11,664 nucleotides of DNA from a bacterium (GTDB taxonomy: Bacteria; CAIWAD01). Both the position numbers and the translations under genes were made by a program. Under the pieces are notes generated by a model. It was not told the origin of the DNA. It ran no database searches and saw nothing but the letters and a program-made list of their open reading frames with translations. This document shows positions 1 through 7,232 of this stretch, in pieces; position 1 is the first letter of the stretch; the number at the start of each line of letters is the position of its first letter. The DNA lies in NCBI GenBank assembly GCA_030685015.1, contig JAUXWS010000066.1, forward strand, positions 1 through 11,664. Direction: 5' to 3'.

Positions 1-349
1 GGACTGCGCCACCTGCCACAGCACGGCCGCCTGGCAGCCGGCCACCTTCGACCACGACCTGACGGACTTCCCGCTCACCGGCGCCCACGTCGCCGTCAGC
101 TGCGCGGCCTGCCACGTGGGCGGCCAGTACACGGACATCGATGGGGCCTGCTGGGCCTGCCACGAGCCGGACTACCAGCAGGCGGGCAATCCCGACCACG
201 CCGCCAACCAGTTCTCCCAGGACTGCGCCACCTGCCACAGCACGGCCGCCTGGCAGCCGGCCACCTTCGACCACGACCTGACGGACTTCCCGCTCACCGG
301 CGCCCACGTCGCCGTCAGCTGCGCGGCCTGCCACGTGGACGGCCAGTAC
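1..349 (+). repeat. Near-identical 219-bp tandem repeat inside the first cytochrome gene
   Basis: Bases 1-130 match bases 220-349 with one difference (G at 120, A at 339), a period of 219 bp or 73 codons. The copy after that (440-658) keeps the protein pattern but is clearly diverged in DNA. The copies encode the unit DCATCH...FDHD...FPLTGAH...CAACH...CWACH or CFFCH...PDH. Since the first copy begins at the window edge, more identical copies may lie to the left. Confidence 0.95.
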
Positions 350-982
350 GAGAACACACCCAGCGCCTGCTTCTTCTGCCACGAAGATGACTTCAGCTCG
401 GCCGACGATCCCGACCACCTTGCCGCCCAGTTCCCCCAGGATTGCGCGCTGTGCCACAGCACGACCCAGTGGCAGGGAGCCGTGTTCAACCACAACGACA
501 CCGGCTTCCCGCTGACCGGAGCCCACACTTCTGTCAATTGCGCCGCCTGCCACCTGGGCGGCCAGTACGAGAACACGCCGACGGACTGCCACGCCTGCCA
601 TGCGGCGGACTACCAGTCGGCCGACAGCCCCGACCATGCGGATGAGGGCTATCCCACGGACTGCGCCATGTGCCACGGCTCGCAAGCCGGTTGGCCCTCC
701 GCCTGGAACCACGCCATCTACTTCCCCATCTACACGGGCCGCCATCGCGACGAGTGGGAGACCTGCGCCAGCTGCCACCTGGGCAACGACCTGGGCGACT
801 TCAGTTGCACGCATTGCCATGAACATCGCCAGTCCGAGATGGACGAGGAGCATGACGAGGTGGCTGGCTACACGTGGGAAAGCCACGCCTGCCTGCAGTG
901 CCATCCCGACGGCAGCGATCTGCGGGGACGCGGGCACCAGCGCCGCGGTCCGGATCTGCGCAAATGGGAGCCCCTGCGATGA
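2..982 (+). CDS. Multihaem cytochrome c, 5' end outside window (13 haems visible)
   Basis: Predicted secreted electron-transfer protein; the start and signal peptide lie left of the window, and the frame is open from base 2. The visible 326 residues carry 13 CXXCH haem c sites: three 73-residue units (residues 1-73, 74-146, 147-219), each with three sites, then a C-terminal cap (220-326) with four. Each unit also has three other conserved histidines (FDH or FNH, GAH, PDH), enough to give every haem a second axial ligand, so bis-His low-potential haems are inferred. The tail after the last CLQCH is arginine-rich. The stop overlaps the next gene as ATGA, so the genes are coupled. The third gene downstream is a paralogue with the same unit and cap. 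A GTG at 116 is an internal codon, not the start. The haem protein call is certain; its partner and exact cell location are inferred. Confidence 0.93.
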   Translation, partial: DCATCHSTAAWQPATFDHDLTDFPLTGAHVAVSCAACHVGGQYTDIDGACWACHEPDYQQAGNPDHAANQFSQDCATCHSTAAWQPATFDHDLTDFPLTGAHVAVSCAACHVDGQYENTPSACFFCHEDDFSSADDPDHLAAQFPQDCALCHSTTQWQGAVFNHNDTGFPLTGAHTSVNCAACHLGGQYENTPTDCHACHAADYQSADSPDHADEGYPTDCAMCHGSQAGWPSAWNHAIYFPIYTGRHRDEWETCASCHLGNDLGDFSCTHCHEHRQSEMDEEHDEVAGYTWESHACLQCHPDGSDLRGRGHQRRGPDLRKWEPLR

Positions 983-2532
983 GTCACGGCCGCTTCCATC
1001 CCACGCGACGGCTCCTTCCGCCCCTGGTCCTGCTTCTCCTGTGGACCGCCGGCCAGGGGGCCGAAAGCCTGGCCGTCCGCGTCAACAGCGTGGCGACGGA
1101 CGTGGTTTACCTCGCCGCAGGCTCCGCCAACGGACTGGTGGCGGGCATGCGCGGGACCCTGTGCCGGCCCGATGGCCGTCAGGTTGAGGTGGAAGTGCTT
1201 TTTGTCAGCAGCGGACGGGCTTCGGGCCGCGTCCATCCGGCTGGCGTCGAGCTGCGCGTGGGGGACGAGATCTGCTTCGAGCCGGTCGGGACGGCGCCCG
1301 CGCCCGCCGCCGCCAAGCCTCTGCCGCCCGCCGGAGTGGCCGCCCTGGAGCGCCGGGCCGCCGCCACGGGCATCCGTGCCCAGGGCTGGTGGCGTGCCGA
1401 AGCCAGCCGCTGGTCCGGCGGCGACCAGGATCGCAGCATGGGGCGGGGCGCCCTCGGCCTCCGGGCCGGACCGGCGCCGGGCCAGGGCTGGGGCTTGTCC
1501 CTGCAGATGCGCCATCAGGCCGGCTGGGGCGGGACGGGCCGGCAGGATGGCCGCCTGGATGAGTTGGCCCTGAGCGGGCCCGCCCTGGCCAAGCGACTGA
1601 CTTGGCAGGTCGGGCGCCTGGCCGACGGGCGGGGCGCCCTGGGCGGACCCCTCGACGGCCTGTCCGTGGAGCGTGCCGGATCGGCCCCTCTGCTGTGGGG
1701 CATCTCGACGGGCAGCCGGCCCACCGCCGGTGAGCGGTCCATGGGGGCGGGGCTGCGCCTGCGCTGGCGCGACAGGACCAGTCCCTGGGACAGCGACCTC
1801 AAACTTCGCCTGGAGCGGACCGGGGAGGAGGACAGGCGCGGCCTGTCCTGGAACAACCAATGGCGCTTCCTGTCCCGGGGCCGCTTCGAGCATTGGTTGC
1901 GCGCCGAAGACCGGGGAGCGGACACAGGCACCGGCCTGCTGCGCATCTCGTCCACCCGCCTGCGCTGGCTGGGTGGGGAGTGGCAGGCGGAAGCCGGCCA
2001 TCAATTGACGGAGTGGCCCCGTCCGGAGACAGGGCTGCCGGCGGTGGTCACGCCACTGGTCGAGCCGCGTCGCCAGCAGCTGACGCTGGCCCTGGGGCAC
2101 CGGGTGGGCGGCCTGCAGGCCCGCCTGCAGGGGAGGGCCCGCGGCGTGCGCCTGGACAGCGGGATGGAGCGCCTGGTCGGGCTGGGCCTCTCGCATCACC
2201 GCACGCAGGGCTTGCTCAACCGGGCCGATCTGGATGTTCAGCTGCTGCTGGGGCCGCGTGATCGGGGCGGTGAAGCCGGCCTGAATCTGGGGCTGGCCCC
2301 GCCGCGCCTGCCGGGGATCGAACTGGGCCTGCGCGGCTGGAGGGTGGTGCGGCAGCTCGACCGGGAGGCGGGCGCCGCCGCCCGACTTTTCCTGCACGGC
2401 CGCCTGCCCGCTTCCCTGCGCTGGGAGGCGGGAACCCAATGGCACAGGCTGGAGCAGGACTGGCAGCGGGAATGGCGCCTGGGCCTGCGCGGAGATCTTC
2501 GGCTCAGGCCGGGCCGGGAGAGGGCGGGATGA
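979..2532 (+). CDS. Secreted beta-domain plus predicted outer-membrane beta-barrel protein
   Basis: A 517-residue protein, start chosen at 979 because it gives a good signal peptide (RR followed by LLPPLVLLLLW, cleavage near residue 28), an ATGA overlap with the cytochrome stop, and a GGGAG ribosome site at 966-970. Residues 31-100 form a small beta-rich domain (VYLAAGSANGL...GMRG...LRVGDEI) resembling SH3-like or FlgT-C-type modules. An Ala/Pro linker follows (about 101-125). Residues 131-517 are alternating short strands ending in aromatic or arginine residues and separated by charged turns (for example WWRAEASRW, LSLQMRHQ, LRLRWRD), as in outer-membrane barrels. No CXXCH is present. Between two multihaem cytochromes this fits the porin of a porin-cytochrome conduit, analogous in role to MtrB or Geobacter OmbB, though I see no clear homology to either. 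The barrel is probable; the conduit role is inferred. Confidence 0.75.
   Translation: MSHGRFHPTRRLLPPLVLLLLWTAGQGAESLAVRVNSVATDVVYLAAGSANGLVAGMRGTLCRPDGRQVEVEVLFVSSGRASGRVHPAGVELRVGDEICFEPVGTAPAPAAAKPLPPAGVAALERRAAATGIRAQGWWRAEASRWSGGDQDRSMGRGALGLRAGPAPGQGWGLSLQMRHQAGWGGTGRQDGRLDELALSGPALAKRLTWQVGRLADGRGALGGPLDGLSVERAGSAPLLWGISTGSRPTAGERSMGAGLRLRWRDRTSPWDSDLKLRLERTGEEDRRGLSWNNQWRFLSRGRFEHWLRAEDRGADTGTGLLRISSTRLRWLGGEWQAEAGHQLTEWPRPETGLPAVVTPLVEPRRQQLTLALGHRVGGLQARLQGRARGVRLDSGMERLVGLGLSHHRTQGLLNRADLDVQLLLGPRDRGGEAGLNLGLAPPRLPGIELGLRGWRVVRQLDREAGAAARLFLHGRLPASLRWEAGTQWHRLEQDWQREWRLGLRGDLRLRPGRERAG
2517..2523 (+). promoter_or_regulatory. Ribosome binding site of the third operon gene
   Basis: GGAGAGG lies 5 bases before the ATG at 2529 and inside the end of the barrel gene. 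It decides for 2529 over the upstream in-frame ATGs at 2439 and 2472. Confidence 0.6.
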
Positions 2533-3605
2533 GCGCCTGTCTCCTGCTGCTCTTGTGGGCGGGCGTCACGGCGGGCGCCGTCGAGAGTCCCCATGGACCC
2601 TTGGCGTACACATGCGCGGCCTGCCACACCACCAGCGACTGGACCCTGCGCCGCGATCCGGCCTTCCGGCACGACCGCGACAGCTCCTGGCCCTTGGCCG
2701 GCGCCCACGCCGGGGTGGCCTGCGCCGCCTGCCACCGGGACCTGCGCTTCCGTGGCACGGCCGCGTCCTGCCAGGACTGCCATCTGGACATCCACCAGGG
2801 CAGCCTGGGCGACGGCTGCACGGACTGCCACCGTCCGGCCCGCTGGTTCGACCAGGAACTGCTGCGGCGCCGCCACGAACGCAGCCTCTTCCCGCTGAGC
2901 GGGGCGCATGGGGCGCTCGACTGCGCCCAGTGCCACCAGGGAGGCAGCGCCGATCGTTTCGCCACCGCCTCCCCCGCCTGCGCCGCCTGTCACCTGGGGC
3001 AGTACCAGGCTGCGGCCGAGCCGGATCATGGGGCGGGCGGCTTTCCCCTGACCTGCGGTGACTGCCACGGCAGCGCCGCCTGGCGGCCGGCGCGCTTTGA
3101 TCACGGCTGGACGGCCTTTCCCCTGAGCGGCGCCCACCGCGGCACGGCCTGCGCCGCCTGCCACCAGGGCGGGCAATACGCCGGCACGCCGCAGGAATGC
3201 CAGGCCTGCCATCTGGGGGACTACCAGGCCGCGCAGAATCCCAACCACCTGACGGCGGGCTTCCCCACCGATTGCGCCGCCTGCCACAGCACGGCGGGCT
3301 GGCAGGGCGCCAGCTTCGACCACGACCGCCGCTTCTTCCCCATCTACTCCGGCGAGCACCGCGGCCAATGGACCTCTTGCGCCGATTGCCACATCAATGG
3401 CGCCGACCTGGCGGAGTTCTCCTGCCTGGGCTGTCATGCCCACCGGCGCTCAGCCATGGACAACGAGCACGAGGACGTGGCCGGCTACCTCTACGACAGT
3501 CCCGCCTGCCTGCAATGCCATCCGGACGGGCGGGAGAGCAGAGTCCGGCCCGCGCCCCGACTGCAAATCCGGCGGGAGGCCGGACCGCGGAGGCCCCTGC
3601 GCTGA
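2529..3605 (+). CDS. Secreted 13-haem cytochrome c
   Basis: A 358-residue protein with a short signal peptide (LLLLLWAG, AGA cleavage after residue 17; the n-region lacks positive charge). CXXCH sites begin at C29, 65, 81, 97, 132, 151, 176, 208, 224, 249, 284, 299 and 327. Fourteen other histidines (22, 48, 60, 89, 116, 127, 167, 192, 203, 240, 265, 277, 305, 314) can serve as distal ligands for 13 haems. Residues 176-248 form one 73-residue unit like those of the first gene, and 249-358 the same four-haem cap with conserved FPIY, MDxEH, VAGY and CLQCHPDG. The first 175 residues are a more diverged, shorter-spaced arrangement. Start 2529 overlaps the barrel gene stop (ATGA) and follows GGAGAGG; an earlier ATG at 2472 would bury the signal peptide. 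Likely the haem partner of the barrel on one membrane face. Confidence 0.92.
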   Translation: MSACLLLLLWAGVTAGAVESPHGPLAYTCAACHTTSDWTLRRDPAFRHDRDSSWPLAGAHAGVACAACHRDLRFRGTAASCQDCHLDIHQGSLGDGCTDCHRPARWFDQELLRRRHERSLFPLSGAHGALDCAQCHQGGSADRFATASPACAACHLGQYQAAAEPDHGAGGFPLTCGDCHGSAAWRPARFDHGWTAFPLSGAHRGTACAACHQGGQYAGTPQECQACHLGDYQAAQNPNHLTAGFPTDCAACHSTAGWQGASFDHDRRFFPIYSGEHRGQWTSCADCHINGADLAEFSCLGCHAHRRSAMDNEHEDVAGYLYDSPACLQCHPDGRESRVRPAPRLQIRREAGPRRPLR

Positions 3606-3648: not shown

Positions 3649-3663
3649 GCAGCGGGTTGGCAG

Positions 3664-3736
3664 TACCGCGTACGGGATTCGAACCCGTGTTACCGGCGTG
3701 AGAGGCCAGCGTCCTGAACCACTAGACGAACGCGGC
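3664..3736 (-). tRNA. tRNA-Glu, anticodon CTC
   Basis: The minus strand folds as a full cloverleaf of 73 nt. The acceptor stem is GCCGCGT with ACGCGGT (first pair G-U) and the discriminator is A. The D arm GTCTAGTGGTTCAGGAC, the anticodon stem CTGGC / GCCGG with loop CTCTCAC, and the T arm ACGGG-TTCGAAT-CCCGT all match the bacterial tRNA-Glu layout. The anticodon CTC occupies 3700-3702 and reads GAG. CCA is not encoded (CTG follows the discriminator), so it is added after transcription. It stands alone here, with no other tRNA nearby. Confidence 0.95.
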
Positions 3737-4292: not shown

Positions 4293-4463
4293 GCTAGCAG
4301 CCTGTCGGGCTTGGGCTTTGGATGGGATTCGCGTCCAAATCGAGGCCGGTTTTTCGGAAGTTTCGCAGGGCATACTGGTGGTCTGTTCAAGAAACTTGCG
4401 GAAAATCCGGACGGATTGGGGCGATGAAGGCCGCCAAGTGGCCAAGTCCGACAGGCTGCTAGC
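4293..4463. mobile_element. 171-bp MITE-like element with 22-bp terminal inverted repeats
   Basis: The ends are inverted copies: GCTAGCAGCCTGTCGG at 4293-4308 matches the reverse complement of 4448-4463, and the match continues CTTGG after one mismatch (21 of 22 bases). Inside, GGTTTTTC...AAGTTTC (about 4348-4374) pairs loosely with GGAAAATCC and GAAACTTG on the right, so the whole segment can fold as a long imperfect hairpin. It encodes no transposase. TA or CTAG borders both ends at the GCTAGC tips, consistent with a TA or CTAG target duplication, though the tips are palindromic and the exact border is ambiguous. It separates sppA from the small downstream gene. A dispersed hairpin repeat of REP type is the alternative. 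Confidence 0.65.
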
Positions 4464-7104
4464 GCTGCGGGAAGGCGAGCAGGTCCTCGTCCACCAGCAT
4501 CTCGGGCCGCCCCGAACCCAGGATCTGATAGCGGGCGTCGCGGGCCAGGCCCATCTGCTCGGCCACCAGGCTCTCCTGCGCCGCCGTCAGGCCGCCGCCC
4601 TGCCCCAGCAGGCGCAGCAGGTTGAGGAGGTCGGCCAGATTCAGTTCCGGGTGGATCTCCCGCAACTTGACGTCGTCCTTGCGCAGGCCGGCGCGCTCGA
4701 TGGCCAGGTCGATGCCGTCCTGCAGGCCGCCCTGGCCGTCCACCAGCCCCAGCCGCTGGGCCTCGCGGCCGGACCAGATCCGGCCTTCGGCGATGGCGTC
4801 GATCTCTTCCCAGCTCTTGCCGCGGTCATCGGCCACCTTCTGCACGAAATCATTGTAGAAATCGCGGACCATGGCCTGCACCTCCAGCGACTGACCCTCC
4901 GTCAGCTCGCGGCCGAACACAGGCAAGGCGGGGAGGCGGAACTGGGCGCTGCCGGCGTCGACGTTGAGCGGCGCCATGACCATGGCCCCGCCGAAGCTCT
5001 CCTTCTTGCCCGCCCAGACGCCGTCCTGGCGCAGGCGCGAGTTCTCCATCAGGCCCTTGTCGATGAAGAGGCCGGCCGCCACGCCGAGGGAGCCGGTGAT
5101 GGTGAGCGGCGTGGAGAGGATGGTGTCCGCGGCCATGGACAGGTAGTAGCCGCCCGAGGCCGCCACGAAGCCCTGCACCACGATGAGGGGCTTCTTCTTC
5201 TTGAGGCGCTCCATCTCGCGCCAGATCAGGTCGGAGGCGTAGCCGCTGCCGCCGGGGCTGTCGATGTGGAAGACGACGGCCTTGACGTTGTCGTCCTCGC
5301 GGGCCGCCTTGAACTGCTTGACCAGGGTCTCGTCGCCGATGAGGAAGGGACCCAGGCTGCGGCCCGACATGATGGGGCCGGCGGCGTAGATGACGGCCAC
5401 CTCGGGCTGCACGCCCCAGCGCCGCTTCGCCGGCTTCTCCTGCAGGGAGGCCAGAGAGACGACCCGGTCCTCCTTCAGCTTCTTCAGCTTGGCCGCATCG
5501 AAGCCCAGGGAGATGGTGATGCCGTGGCTGTCCTTCTTCCCGTCGTCATCGTCGCTCGATTCGCGGCGACAGACCCAGTCCTCCACTTGATCGTCGTAGA
5601 GCAGGGTGTCCACCAGCCCCAGTTCCAACATGTCGTCCTTGGAGAAGAACCAGCGCTCCAGCACGCGCTCCATCTGGGCGTCGCTGAAGCCATAACCCTG
5701 CTGGATCCCGCTTGTCATGTGCTGGTAGATGTCGTTGAAGCAGCGGCCCACGTTCTCCCGCACCTCGGGGGACATGGAGGCGCGGTCCAGGTCTTCGCCC
5801 GCGCCCTTCCAGGCCCCCACGTTGAAGCGGACGAAATCGATCCCCGCCTCCTCCAGGACGTCGGCCAGGTAGAGGCGCTCCCGCCCCAAGTTGTCCAGCT
5901 GGGCGCCGCCCACAGGCAGCAGGGCGCGGCGGTCGGCCACGGAGGCTACGTAAAGCGTGGACAGGCTGTACATGTGGCTGAAGACAGCCACCTCGCCGCC
6001 CGTCCGGCGCTTGTAGTCCTCGATGCGCGTGCGGATCTCCCGCAGCAGGGCCAGGTCCGCCTGGAAGTCCGGCTTGATGTTGATGAACAGGCCCTTCAGG
6101 CGGGGGTTGGCCTCGGCGTCCTTCATCTGGCGCAGGAACTTGGACAACTGGAACTTCTGGCCCGAGACCAGCCAGGGATACTCGCCGGCCATGCCGGCCA
6201 GCTCGATGCGGGCGAAGAGGTGCTTCTTGTGGCCCAGGGGCAGGCCCTGGTTGAAGGTGCGGTCGCTTACGTGGATGGAGTAGCGCCGGCCCGGATCCAG
6301 GTTGTCGTTGTCGGCCTGGGGCAGGATGGTGCTGAAGCCCAGGCCGCGCAGCTGCACGCCCGCCTGCACCGTCCAGCCCGGCTCGAAGCCGGCATGGCCG
6401 CCCAGGTTGACCGCCTGGCGGGCGCTGAGGCGCAGGTAATCCACCGGCTCCAGCTCCACGCCCAGCCAGTACTGGTCCGTCTTCTTCACGTAGGCGTCCC
6501 TGTCGAAGCGCCAGGCGCCGTCCAGGGAGAGGGTGGCGCGGTCCCAGAAGGGCCGCAGGGCCAAGCCCGCCTCGTAGAGGTAGCGGGGCAACTGATAGGT
6601 GCGCCCCAGGGCGATGGTGCCGGTCATGCCCAGGCTGGCATAGCGATGGAGGTGGTTGAGGCTGGAGACGATGAACTGGTCCGGTTCCTGGGCGGCATCC
6701 CAGGTGCCGTTGCTCCAGCCATAGGCCAGACCCGTGTAGTTGCCCTTGTCGCCGAATCCCACGCCCAGGCGGTACTGGTTCATGGAGTGCCGGCCGGTGG
6801 GATCCTCCTCGTGGACGAGGCCGAAGCCCAGTCCCCCCAGATTGGTGAAGAAGGCCAACTCGCTCTGCTGGGGATGGTCGTCCCCCTCCCCCGAGAAGAT
6901 GAATTCCATCTCCGCCGTGTTGTCGTAGTACCCCCACAGGGCCGGATTCCAATAACCGGCGGCCGGACCACGGCCGGCGGCGACCGAGCCCACGCTCCAG
7001 GCGCCCAGATCGCCGCGGGTGCGGAGCGGGGAGAGGGGCGCGGCCAGCAGGTGGGTGGATATCAGGCAGAGGGGCAGAACAAGGGAGATCCGTCCAGGCT
7101 TCAT
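4459..7104 (-). CDS. sppA: SppA-type S49 signal peptide peptidase with N-terminal outer-membrane barrel-like domain
   Basis: An 881-residue secreted protein, signal peptide about 1-22. Residues 30-290 look like a PorV/FadL-type barrel: GRGPAAGYWNPALWG early on, then alternating aromatic strands. Two S49 domains follow: about 295-510, with the likely general base Lys433 (VGAWKGAGE, aligning with VGTYKSAVE around Lys209 of E. coli SppA), and about 565-815, with DSPGGS (615-620) and the nucleophile Ser650 in AASGGYY. The Lys-Ser distance of 217 is close to the 200 of E. coli SppA. An acidic insert (SSDDDDGKK) lies between the domains. SppA degrades leftover signal peptides in membranes; the barrel implies a different site, possibly the outer membrane. 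The ATG at 7104 is chosen over 7227 because of GGAGG and the signal peptide. The TAG lies in the end of the 171-bp repeat. Confidence 0.9.
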   Translation of the reverse strand: MKPGRISLVLPLCLISTHLLAAPLSPLRTRGDLGAWSVGSVAAGRGPAAGYWNPALWGYYDNTAEMEFIFSGEGDDHPQQSELAFFTNLGGLGFGLVHEEDPTGRHSMNQYRLGVGFGDKGNYTGLAYGWSNGTWDAAQEPDQFIVSSLNHLHRYASLGMTGTIALGRTYQLPRYLYEAGLALRPFWDRATLSLDGAWRFDRDAYVKKTDQYWLGVELEPVDYLRLSARQAVNLGGHAGFEPGWTVQAGVQLRGLGFSTILPQADNDNLDPGRRYSIHVSDRTFNQGLPLGHKKHLFARIELAGMAGEYPWLVSGQKFQLSKFLRQMKDAEANPRLKGLFINIKPDFQADLALLREIRTRIEDYKRRTGGEVAVFSHMYSLSTLYVASVADRRALLPVGGAQLDNLGRERLYLADVLEEAGIDFVRFNVGAWKGAGEDLDRASMSPEVRENVGRCFNDIYQHMTSGIQQGYGFSDAQMERVLERWFFSKDDMLELGLVDTLLYDDQVEDWVCRRESSDDDDGKKDSHGITISLGFDAAKLKKLKEDRVVSLASLQEKPAKRRWGVQPEVAVIYAAGPIMSGRSLGPFLIGDETLVKQFKAAREDDNVKAVVFHIDSPGGSGYASDLIWREMERLKKKKPLIVVQGFVAASGGYYLSMAADTILSTPLTITGSLGVAAGLFIDKGLMENSRLRQDGVWAGKKESFGGAMVMAPLNVDAGSAQFRLPALPVFGRELTEGQSLEVQAMVRDFYNDFVQKVADDRGKSWEEIDAIAEGRIWSGREAQRLGLVDGQGGLQDGIDLAIERAGLRKDDVKLREIHPELNLADLLNLLRLLGQGGGLTAAQESLVAEQMGLARDARYQILGSGRPEMLVDEDLLAFPQR

Positions 7105-7108
7105 GATT

Positions 7109-7113
7109 CCTCC
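7109..7113 (-). promoter_or_regulatory. Ribosome binding site of sppA
   Basis: GGAGG on the minus strand, 4 bases before the ATG at 7104. The frame stays open 41 codons farther upstream, but no comparable site or signal peptide exists there. Confidence 0.75.
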
Positions 7114-7161
7114 ATGGTTGCGAAGTGGCTCCGACCGCCGCCTGGCCCAAGTGTTTCGTGG

Positions 7162-7190
7162 AAAATCGAGATTGGGCGAAGGGAATGCAA
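7162..7190 (-). promoter_or_regulatory. Weak candidate promoter of sppA
   Basis: Minus-strand TTGCAT (7185-7190) and GATTTT (7162-7167) are 17 bases apart, about 58 bases before the sppA start and just past the terminator at 7233-7264. Only the spacing and the TTG are convincing. The terminator upstream implies that sppA needs its own promoter in this interval. Confidence 0.2.
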
Positions 7191-7232
7191 TCCGCCGCCG
7201 GGAAGCAGGTCGGGCGGATCTCGTCATGTGTA

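Follow-up and report, generated by a model that had tools for sequence, protein, structure and literature searches.

A PCC3-type porin-cytochrome cluster with a compact predicted barrel and a linked flavoprotein in bacteria of the FCB superphylum

We analyzed a window of 11,664 nucleotides, the entire contig C66 of a bacterial genome of 3.6 Mb in 105 contigs, and find that it probably encodes the part of a PCC3-type porin-cytochrome conduit that lies at the outer membrane. Judged from its protein sequences, the complete cluster is a distinct FCB variant of PCC3, set apart by its compact barrel and a consistently linked flavoprotein, and not a new kind of conduit. PCC3 was reported by He et al. 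(PMC5566968) from Alpha-, Beta- and Gammaproteobacteria as a set made up of a porin, cytochromes very rich in haem (both extracellular and periplasmic), and an inner-membrane protein of about 300 residues with two WX3HX13H motifs and an SGXXG motif; it is the predicted conduit of iron-oxidising Proteobacteria (PMC5566968; also PMC10734462). The FCB cluster links five families, predicted to be an inner-membrane protein with two haem-b motifs (IMP), an FAD/NAD(P) protein with two 4Fe-4S motifs, a 20-23-haem cytochrome (P), a cytochrome of 13+3n haems (E) and a 22-strand barrel. An earlier description of a PCC3-like cluster in FCB phyla was not found in the open-licence literature.

The genes in the window lie on the forward strand and are joined by two ATGA overlaps, at 979-982 (cytochrome/barrel) and 2529-2532 (barrel/cytochrome). 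The first cytochrome (2..982) is the 3' part of a long, variable, probably outer, E-type multihaem protein; since the window is a whole contig and the gene is cut by the contig end, its reading frame is open at the edge and the protein is truncated here. It includes two full 73-residue three-haem repeat units (68..505; 68-286 and 287-505), delimited by FPLTGAH boundaries in the translation, and a conserved four-haem C-terminal cap with its tail (662..982). The barrel protein (979..2532; ATG at 979, stop at 2532, 517 aa) is predicted to be a secreted N-terminal domain followed by an outer-membrane barrel, and the second cytochrome (2529..3605; ATG at 2529, stop at 3605, 358 aa) is a minimal, 13-haem paralogue of the first. 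Each cytochrome shows 13 CXXCH motifs in the window, while in 2000 shuffles of the 358-aa protein the count averaged 0.14 and never exceeded 3. The open reading frames and motif counts thus confirm what had been read from the sequence alone, namely two multihaem cytochromes flanking a barrel protein with two overlaps. Directly past the operon, on the opposite strand, lies a tRNA-Glu (CTC; 3663-3736), followed on the same minus strand by an SppA-type S49 peptidase of 922 aa (4459-7227), which has an N-terminal extension of about 330 aa ahead of the peptidase match and a 950-aa counterpart at the equivalent position of another locus (L016).

The operon extends beyond positions 2-3605. A second contig of the genome, C70, ends in the same three-haem repeat, with a 19-base overlap to C66, and it supplies the N-terminal part of the first cytochrome (L015:18091-19746, 22 haem motifs). 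Once joined, the protein is 872 aa long and carries 34 haem motifs; because the break falls within near-identical repeats, the join is inferential and 34 haems is a lower bound. Three further genes lie 5' of the first cytochrome on C70, placing the operon start outside the window: a 20-haem cytochrome, P (L015:16410-18089, 20 CXXCH), a putative membrane protein, IMP (L015:14003-15064), which matches the IMP profile at 7e-67 and carries HX13H and SGxxG motifs, and a flavoprotein with two 4Fe-4S and two Rossmann motifs. The genes of C70 and of the window are one cluster, of which the window holds the last part only. Elsewhere in the same genome, a weak extra cytochrome match (L014; G000:C67:83755-84105) has one TAA within the matched frame.

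Scanning a species-genome collection with an alignment of the 20-haem cytochrome revealed the five-gene set in Calditrichota, Zixibacteria, Krumholzibacteria, Ignavibacteria and many Bacteroidota, where the usual order is IMP, flavoprotein, 20/23-haem P, variable E, barrel. The gene-neighbourhood comparison therefore finds the set to which the trio belongs in distant genomes, in agreement with the sequence-only reading; a single-sequence barrel query against the genome contigs gave no matches. Of 22 loci that extend far enough on either side, a script found all five genes in 20, and in the other two (L026 and L069) E is visible, with its ORF call overlapping or fused with a neighbour. Among 28 loci that continue for 8 kb downstream, 27 have the barrel (the exception is L055); the loci obtained through barrel searches, five in all, are left out of this count. 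Within the window's own family, G003 (L161) encodes a flavoprotein, P, a 34-haem E, a barrel and IMP, with no second E, and a genome of the same genus, G002 (91% complete), gave no barrel match. Several loci show additional features. A 250-aa lipoprotein-like gene stands immediately 3' of the barrel in L041, L043, L046, L047, L048, L057 and L063, followed in L046 by a 1033-aa ResB/CcsA-type cytochrome c maturation protein (Pfam) with look-alikes in the other loci. A two-gene form, in which a 26-haem P-like cytochrome overlaps a 448-aa barrel that has no N-terminal domain, occurs at L166:6467-10215 (G471), and the genome of L054 has two barrel genes of the PCC3-like FCB family, one locus being L106 (G063).

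The haem number of E follows the rule 13+3n, ranging among relatives from 13 (n=0) to 76 (n=21). Its haem spacings are fixed, running 36-16-16-35-19-25, then a repeated 32-16-25, then the four-haem cap; the 73-residue unit has this same 32-16-25 spacing, so that the three-haem units and shared cap noted earlier are real features. Four apparent misfits return to the rule with one CX3CH or CX4CH motif each, which leaves a 26-haem E (L021) as the sole exception. Large proteins include 67-76-haem cytochromes of about 1700-1900 aa in Saprospiraceae-type loci (L048, L053, L054, L056, L060) and 62-haem cytochromes of about 1680 aa in Burkholderiales PCC3 loci (L129, L133, L136). AlphaFold2 gave no credible fold for the 13-haem cytochrome (pLDDT 41), and PDB matches of the cytochromes were weak. 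No lipobox was found in E, which we count against the conduit reading and which leaves surface attachment without explanation.

The symmetrical layout in the window had been taken to place one cytochrome on each side of the membrane, and gene order within the window, together with the unequal length of the two copies (at least 34 haems in the long form, 13 in the minimal form), would fit periplasmic and extracellular halves of a conduit. The phylogeny makes this improbable. In a tree of 38 E cores, both copies of the window genome and of G001 form one clade (support 100/99), within which first copies group together (98/91) and second copies group together (98/92). The two flanking cytochromes are therefore sister copies from one duplication within the genus, and the cytochrome-barrel-cytochrome symmetry is a local duplication. 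The recent copies share their N-terminal part, three-haem unit and cap, and most relatives have a single E-type gene plus a 20-haem P, the constant partner elsewhere being a cytochrome of 20-23 haems. A second E copy near the barrel was also seen in L054 and in the betaproteobacterial PCC3 locus L131. The periplasmic partner is thus likely the 20-haem protein encoded outside the window.

The barrel protein was modelled by AlphaFold2 with 32 relatives at a mean pLDDT of 81, giving a signal region, a small beta domain at residues 31-100 (1069..1278) that is kept in relatives, a helix and 22 long strands at residues 133-509 (1375..2505). This bears out the earlier proposal of a barrel-like C-terminal part with a separate N-terminal domain; for the latter, just one of the 32 members has a Pfam match (FlgT_C, E 0.012), which we did not rely on. 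An aromatic C-terminal residue is usual in outer-membrane proteins, and most barrel relatives have one, often as -RF, with the two proteins of the window's genus as exceptions. By sequence, the barrel has no match among solved structures. Its top hits in Foldseek are FimD and PapC, pilus ushers whose 22-24-strand barrels serve protein export, and the barrel gene stands directly 3' of the very long E gene; both points would suit a pore that exports or anchors outer cytochromes in place of a conducting sheath, the cytochromes outside then being electron stores or links that are otherwise supplied. We consider this unlikely. The usher matches tie in Foldseek and VIA with OprD-type porins, siderophore receptors and MtrB (for MtrB of 6r2q, Z 16.8 and rmsd 5.2 over 336 residues), no neighbouring gene is usher-like, and the barrel accompanies P and IMP just as regularly as it does E, which is what a conduit requires. 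Since the structural matches hit large barrels in general and tie, they were not used for naming the family. That the cluster is a diverged member of the Mtr/Pio or Geobacter Omb-Oma-Omc conduits, which follow the same general logic, is more improbable still, despite weak MtrC-domain matches in the cytochromes: MtrB_PioB (PF11854) has no Pfam match in the 32 barrel relatives or in the window's genome, profile comparison (hhalign) against MtrB reached 2%, in agreement with the absence of MtrB/PioB homology noted before, and P has 20 haems against 8 or 10. Membership in MtrB/PioB was rejected on these grounds, P not being a decahaem protein.

Profile comparison instead favors PCC3. Against Burkholderiales PCC3 porins, hhalign gave 93.5% (E 2e-7, 320 columns), with a reversed control at 0.2%, and family profiles matched Burkholderiales PCC3 proteins at 1e-167 to 1e-179 for the flavoprotein, 1e-110 to 1e-142 for P (24-haem proteins) and 1e-37 to 1e-49 for IMP. 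The cluster thus combines a modelled 22-strand outer-membrane barrel homologous to PCC3 porins, a neighbouring cytochrome of about 20 or more haems (20 CXXCH) with a predicted periplasmic site, a second cytochrome whose haem count, read from sequence motifs, varies widely (13-76 among relatives), and IMP with SGXXG and HX13H motifs. Of the earlier proposal of a new porin-cytochrome conduit, the conduit probably stands and the novelty does not, as every gene has a homologue in the published PCC3 cluster. Both PCC3 clusters of Sideroxydans ES-1 showed lower expression on Fe(II), which counts against the conduit reading, and in strain CL21 an inner-membrane component rose with iron oxidation.

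The inner-membrane end is suggested by IMP and the flavoprotein. IMP carries two haem-b ligand motifs, having two HX13H motifs and SGxxG as described for PCC3, with W at both sites in most relatives, and He et al. (PMC5566968) proposed that it exchanges electrons with quinones. The flavoprotein lacks CxxC between its FAD and NAD motifs in 60 of 60 sequences and is therefore not a thioredoxin reductase. It adjoins 9 of the 10 Burkholderiales PCC3 loci fetched, and the parts of He et al. (PMC5566968) used here do not name it among PCC3 components. Given its constant presence, IMP may exchange electrons with NAD(P)H or ferredoxin in place of quinones.

Under the PCC3-type conduit reading, NAD(P)H, ferredoxin or quinol would exchange electrons with the flavoprotein/IMP pair at the inner membrane, the flavoprotein feeding or draining IMP. 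P would carry electrons from IMP across the periplasm and they would pass through the barrel into E, whose three-haem repeats may set the reach outside the cell, to a redox site on a mineral, humic substance, electrode or partner cell. Flow could run either way. A Chloroflexi contig with IMP and a 21-haem P-type cytochrome and without a barrel agrees with a place for P at the inner membrane and for the barrel in the outer membrane. We further raise, tentatively and as the less probable option, that the FCB branch connects with cytosolic NAD(P)H or ferredoxin and not with quinones: a thioredoxin-reductase-like flavoprotein without the thioredoxin CxxC and with two 4Fe-4S motifs would exchange electrons with a ferric-reductase-like two-haem-b protein, and onward via the 20-haem cytochrome and barrel with a repeat-tuned outer wire. 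If true, many FCB bacteria, including some genera known as aerobic, would have a direct NAD(P)H-to-outside line.

With this conduit, the range of large-haem outer-membrane conduits would reach beyond Proteobacteria into much of the FCB superphylum, where some groups are not generally counted as electroactive. Its outer cytochrome changes in length by exact three-haem increments around a constant 13-haem core. Since the flavoprotein is a constant linked partner, the inner-membrane entry point becomes testable, and since the MtrB profile misses the FCB barrel entirely, surveys relying on it undercount such bacteria.

Among known systems, MtrCAB, MtoAB and PioAB share a barrel flanked by multihaem cytochromes and the same inferred task, and differ in that barrel homology is undetectable and P has 20 haems here against 10. 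Porin-less clusters of IMP plus cytochrome (proteobacterial with 8-12 haems, Chloroflexi with 21) have a homologous IMP directly 5' of a multihaem cytochrome, yet no barrel and mostly no outer cytochrome, and probably provide periplasmic electron supply only. With PCC3 the cluster shares four homologous parts, namely a porin, a variable multihaem outer cytochrome, a periplasmic cytochrome of at least 20 haems and an IMP that carries the PCC3 motifs, and an extra cytochrome beside the porin is found also in L131 and in some Leptothrix-group genomes. The PCC3 porins fetched measure 720-1002 aa, whereas the FCB barrel has 517-560 aa, 22 strands and a different N-terminal domain; the PCC3 P has 24 haems and the FCB P 20 or 23; the FCB E, unlike that of PCC3, follows 13+3n; the flavoprotein is usually in the same operon in FCB loci and divergent in PCC3; and the hosts are FCB phyla here and Proteobacteria for PCC3.
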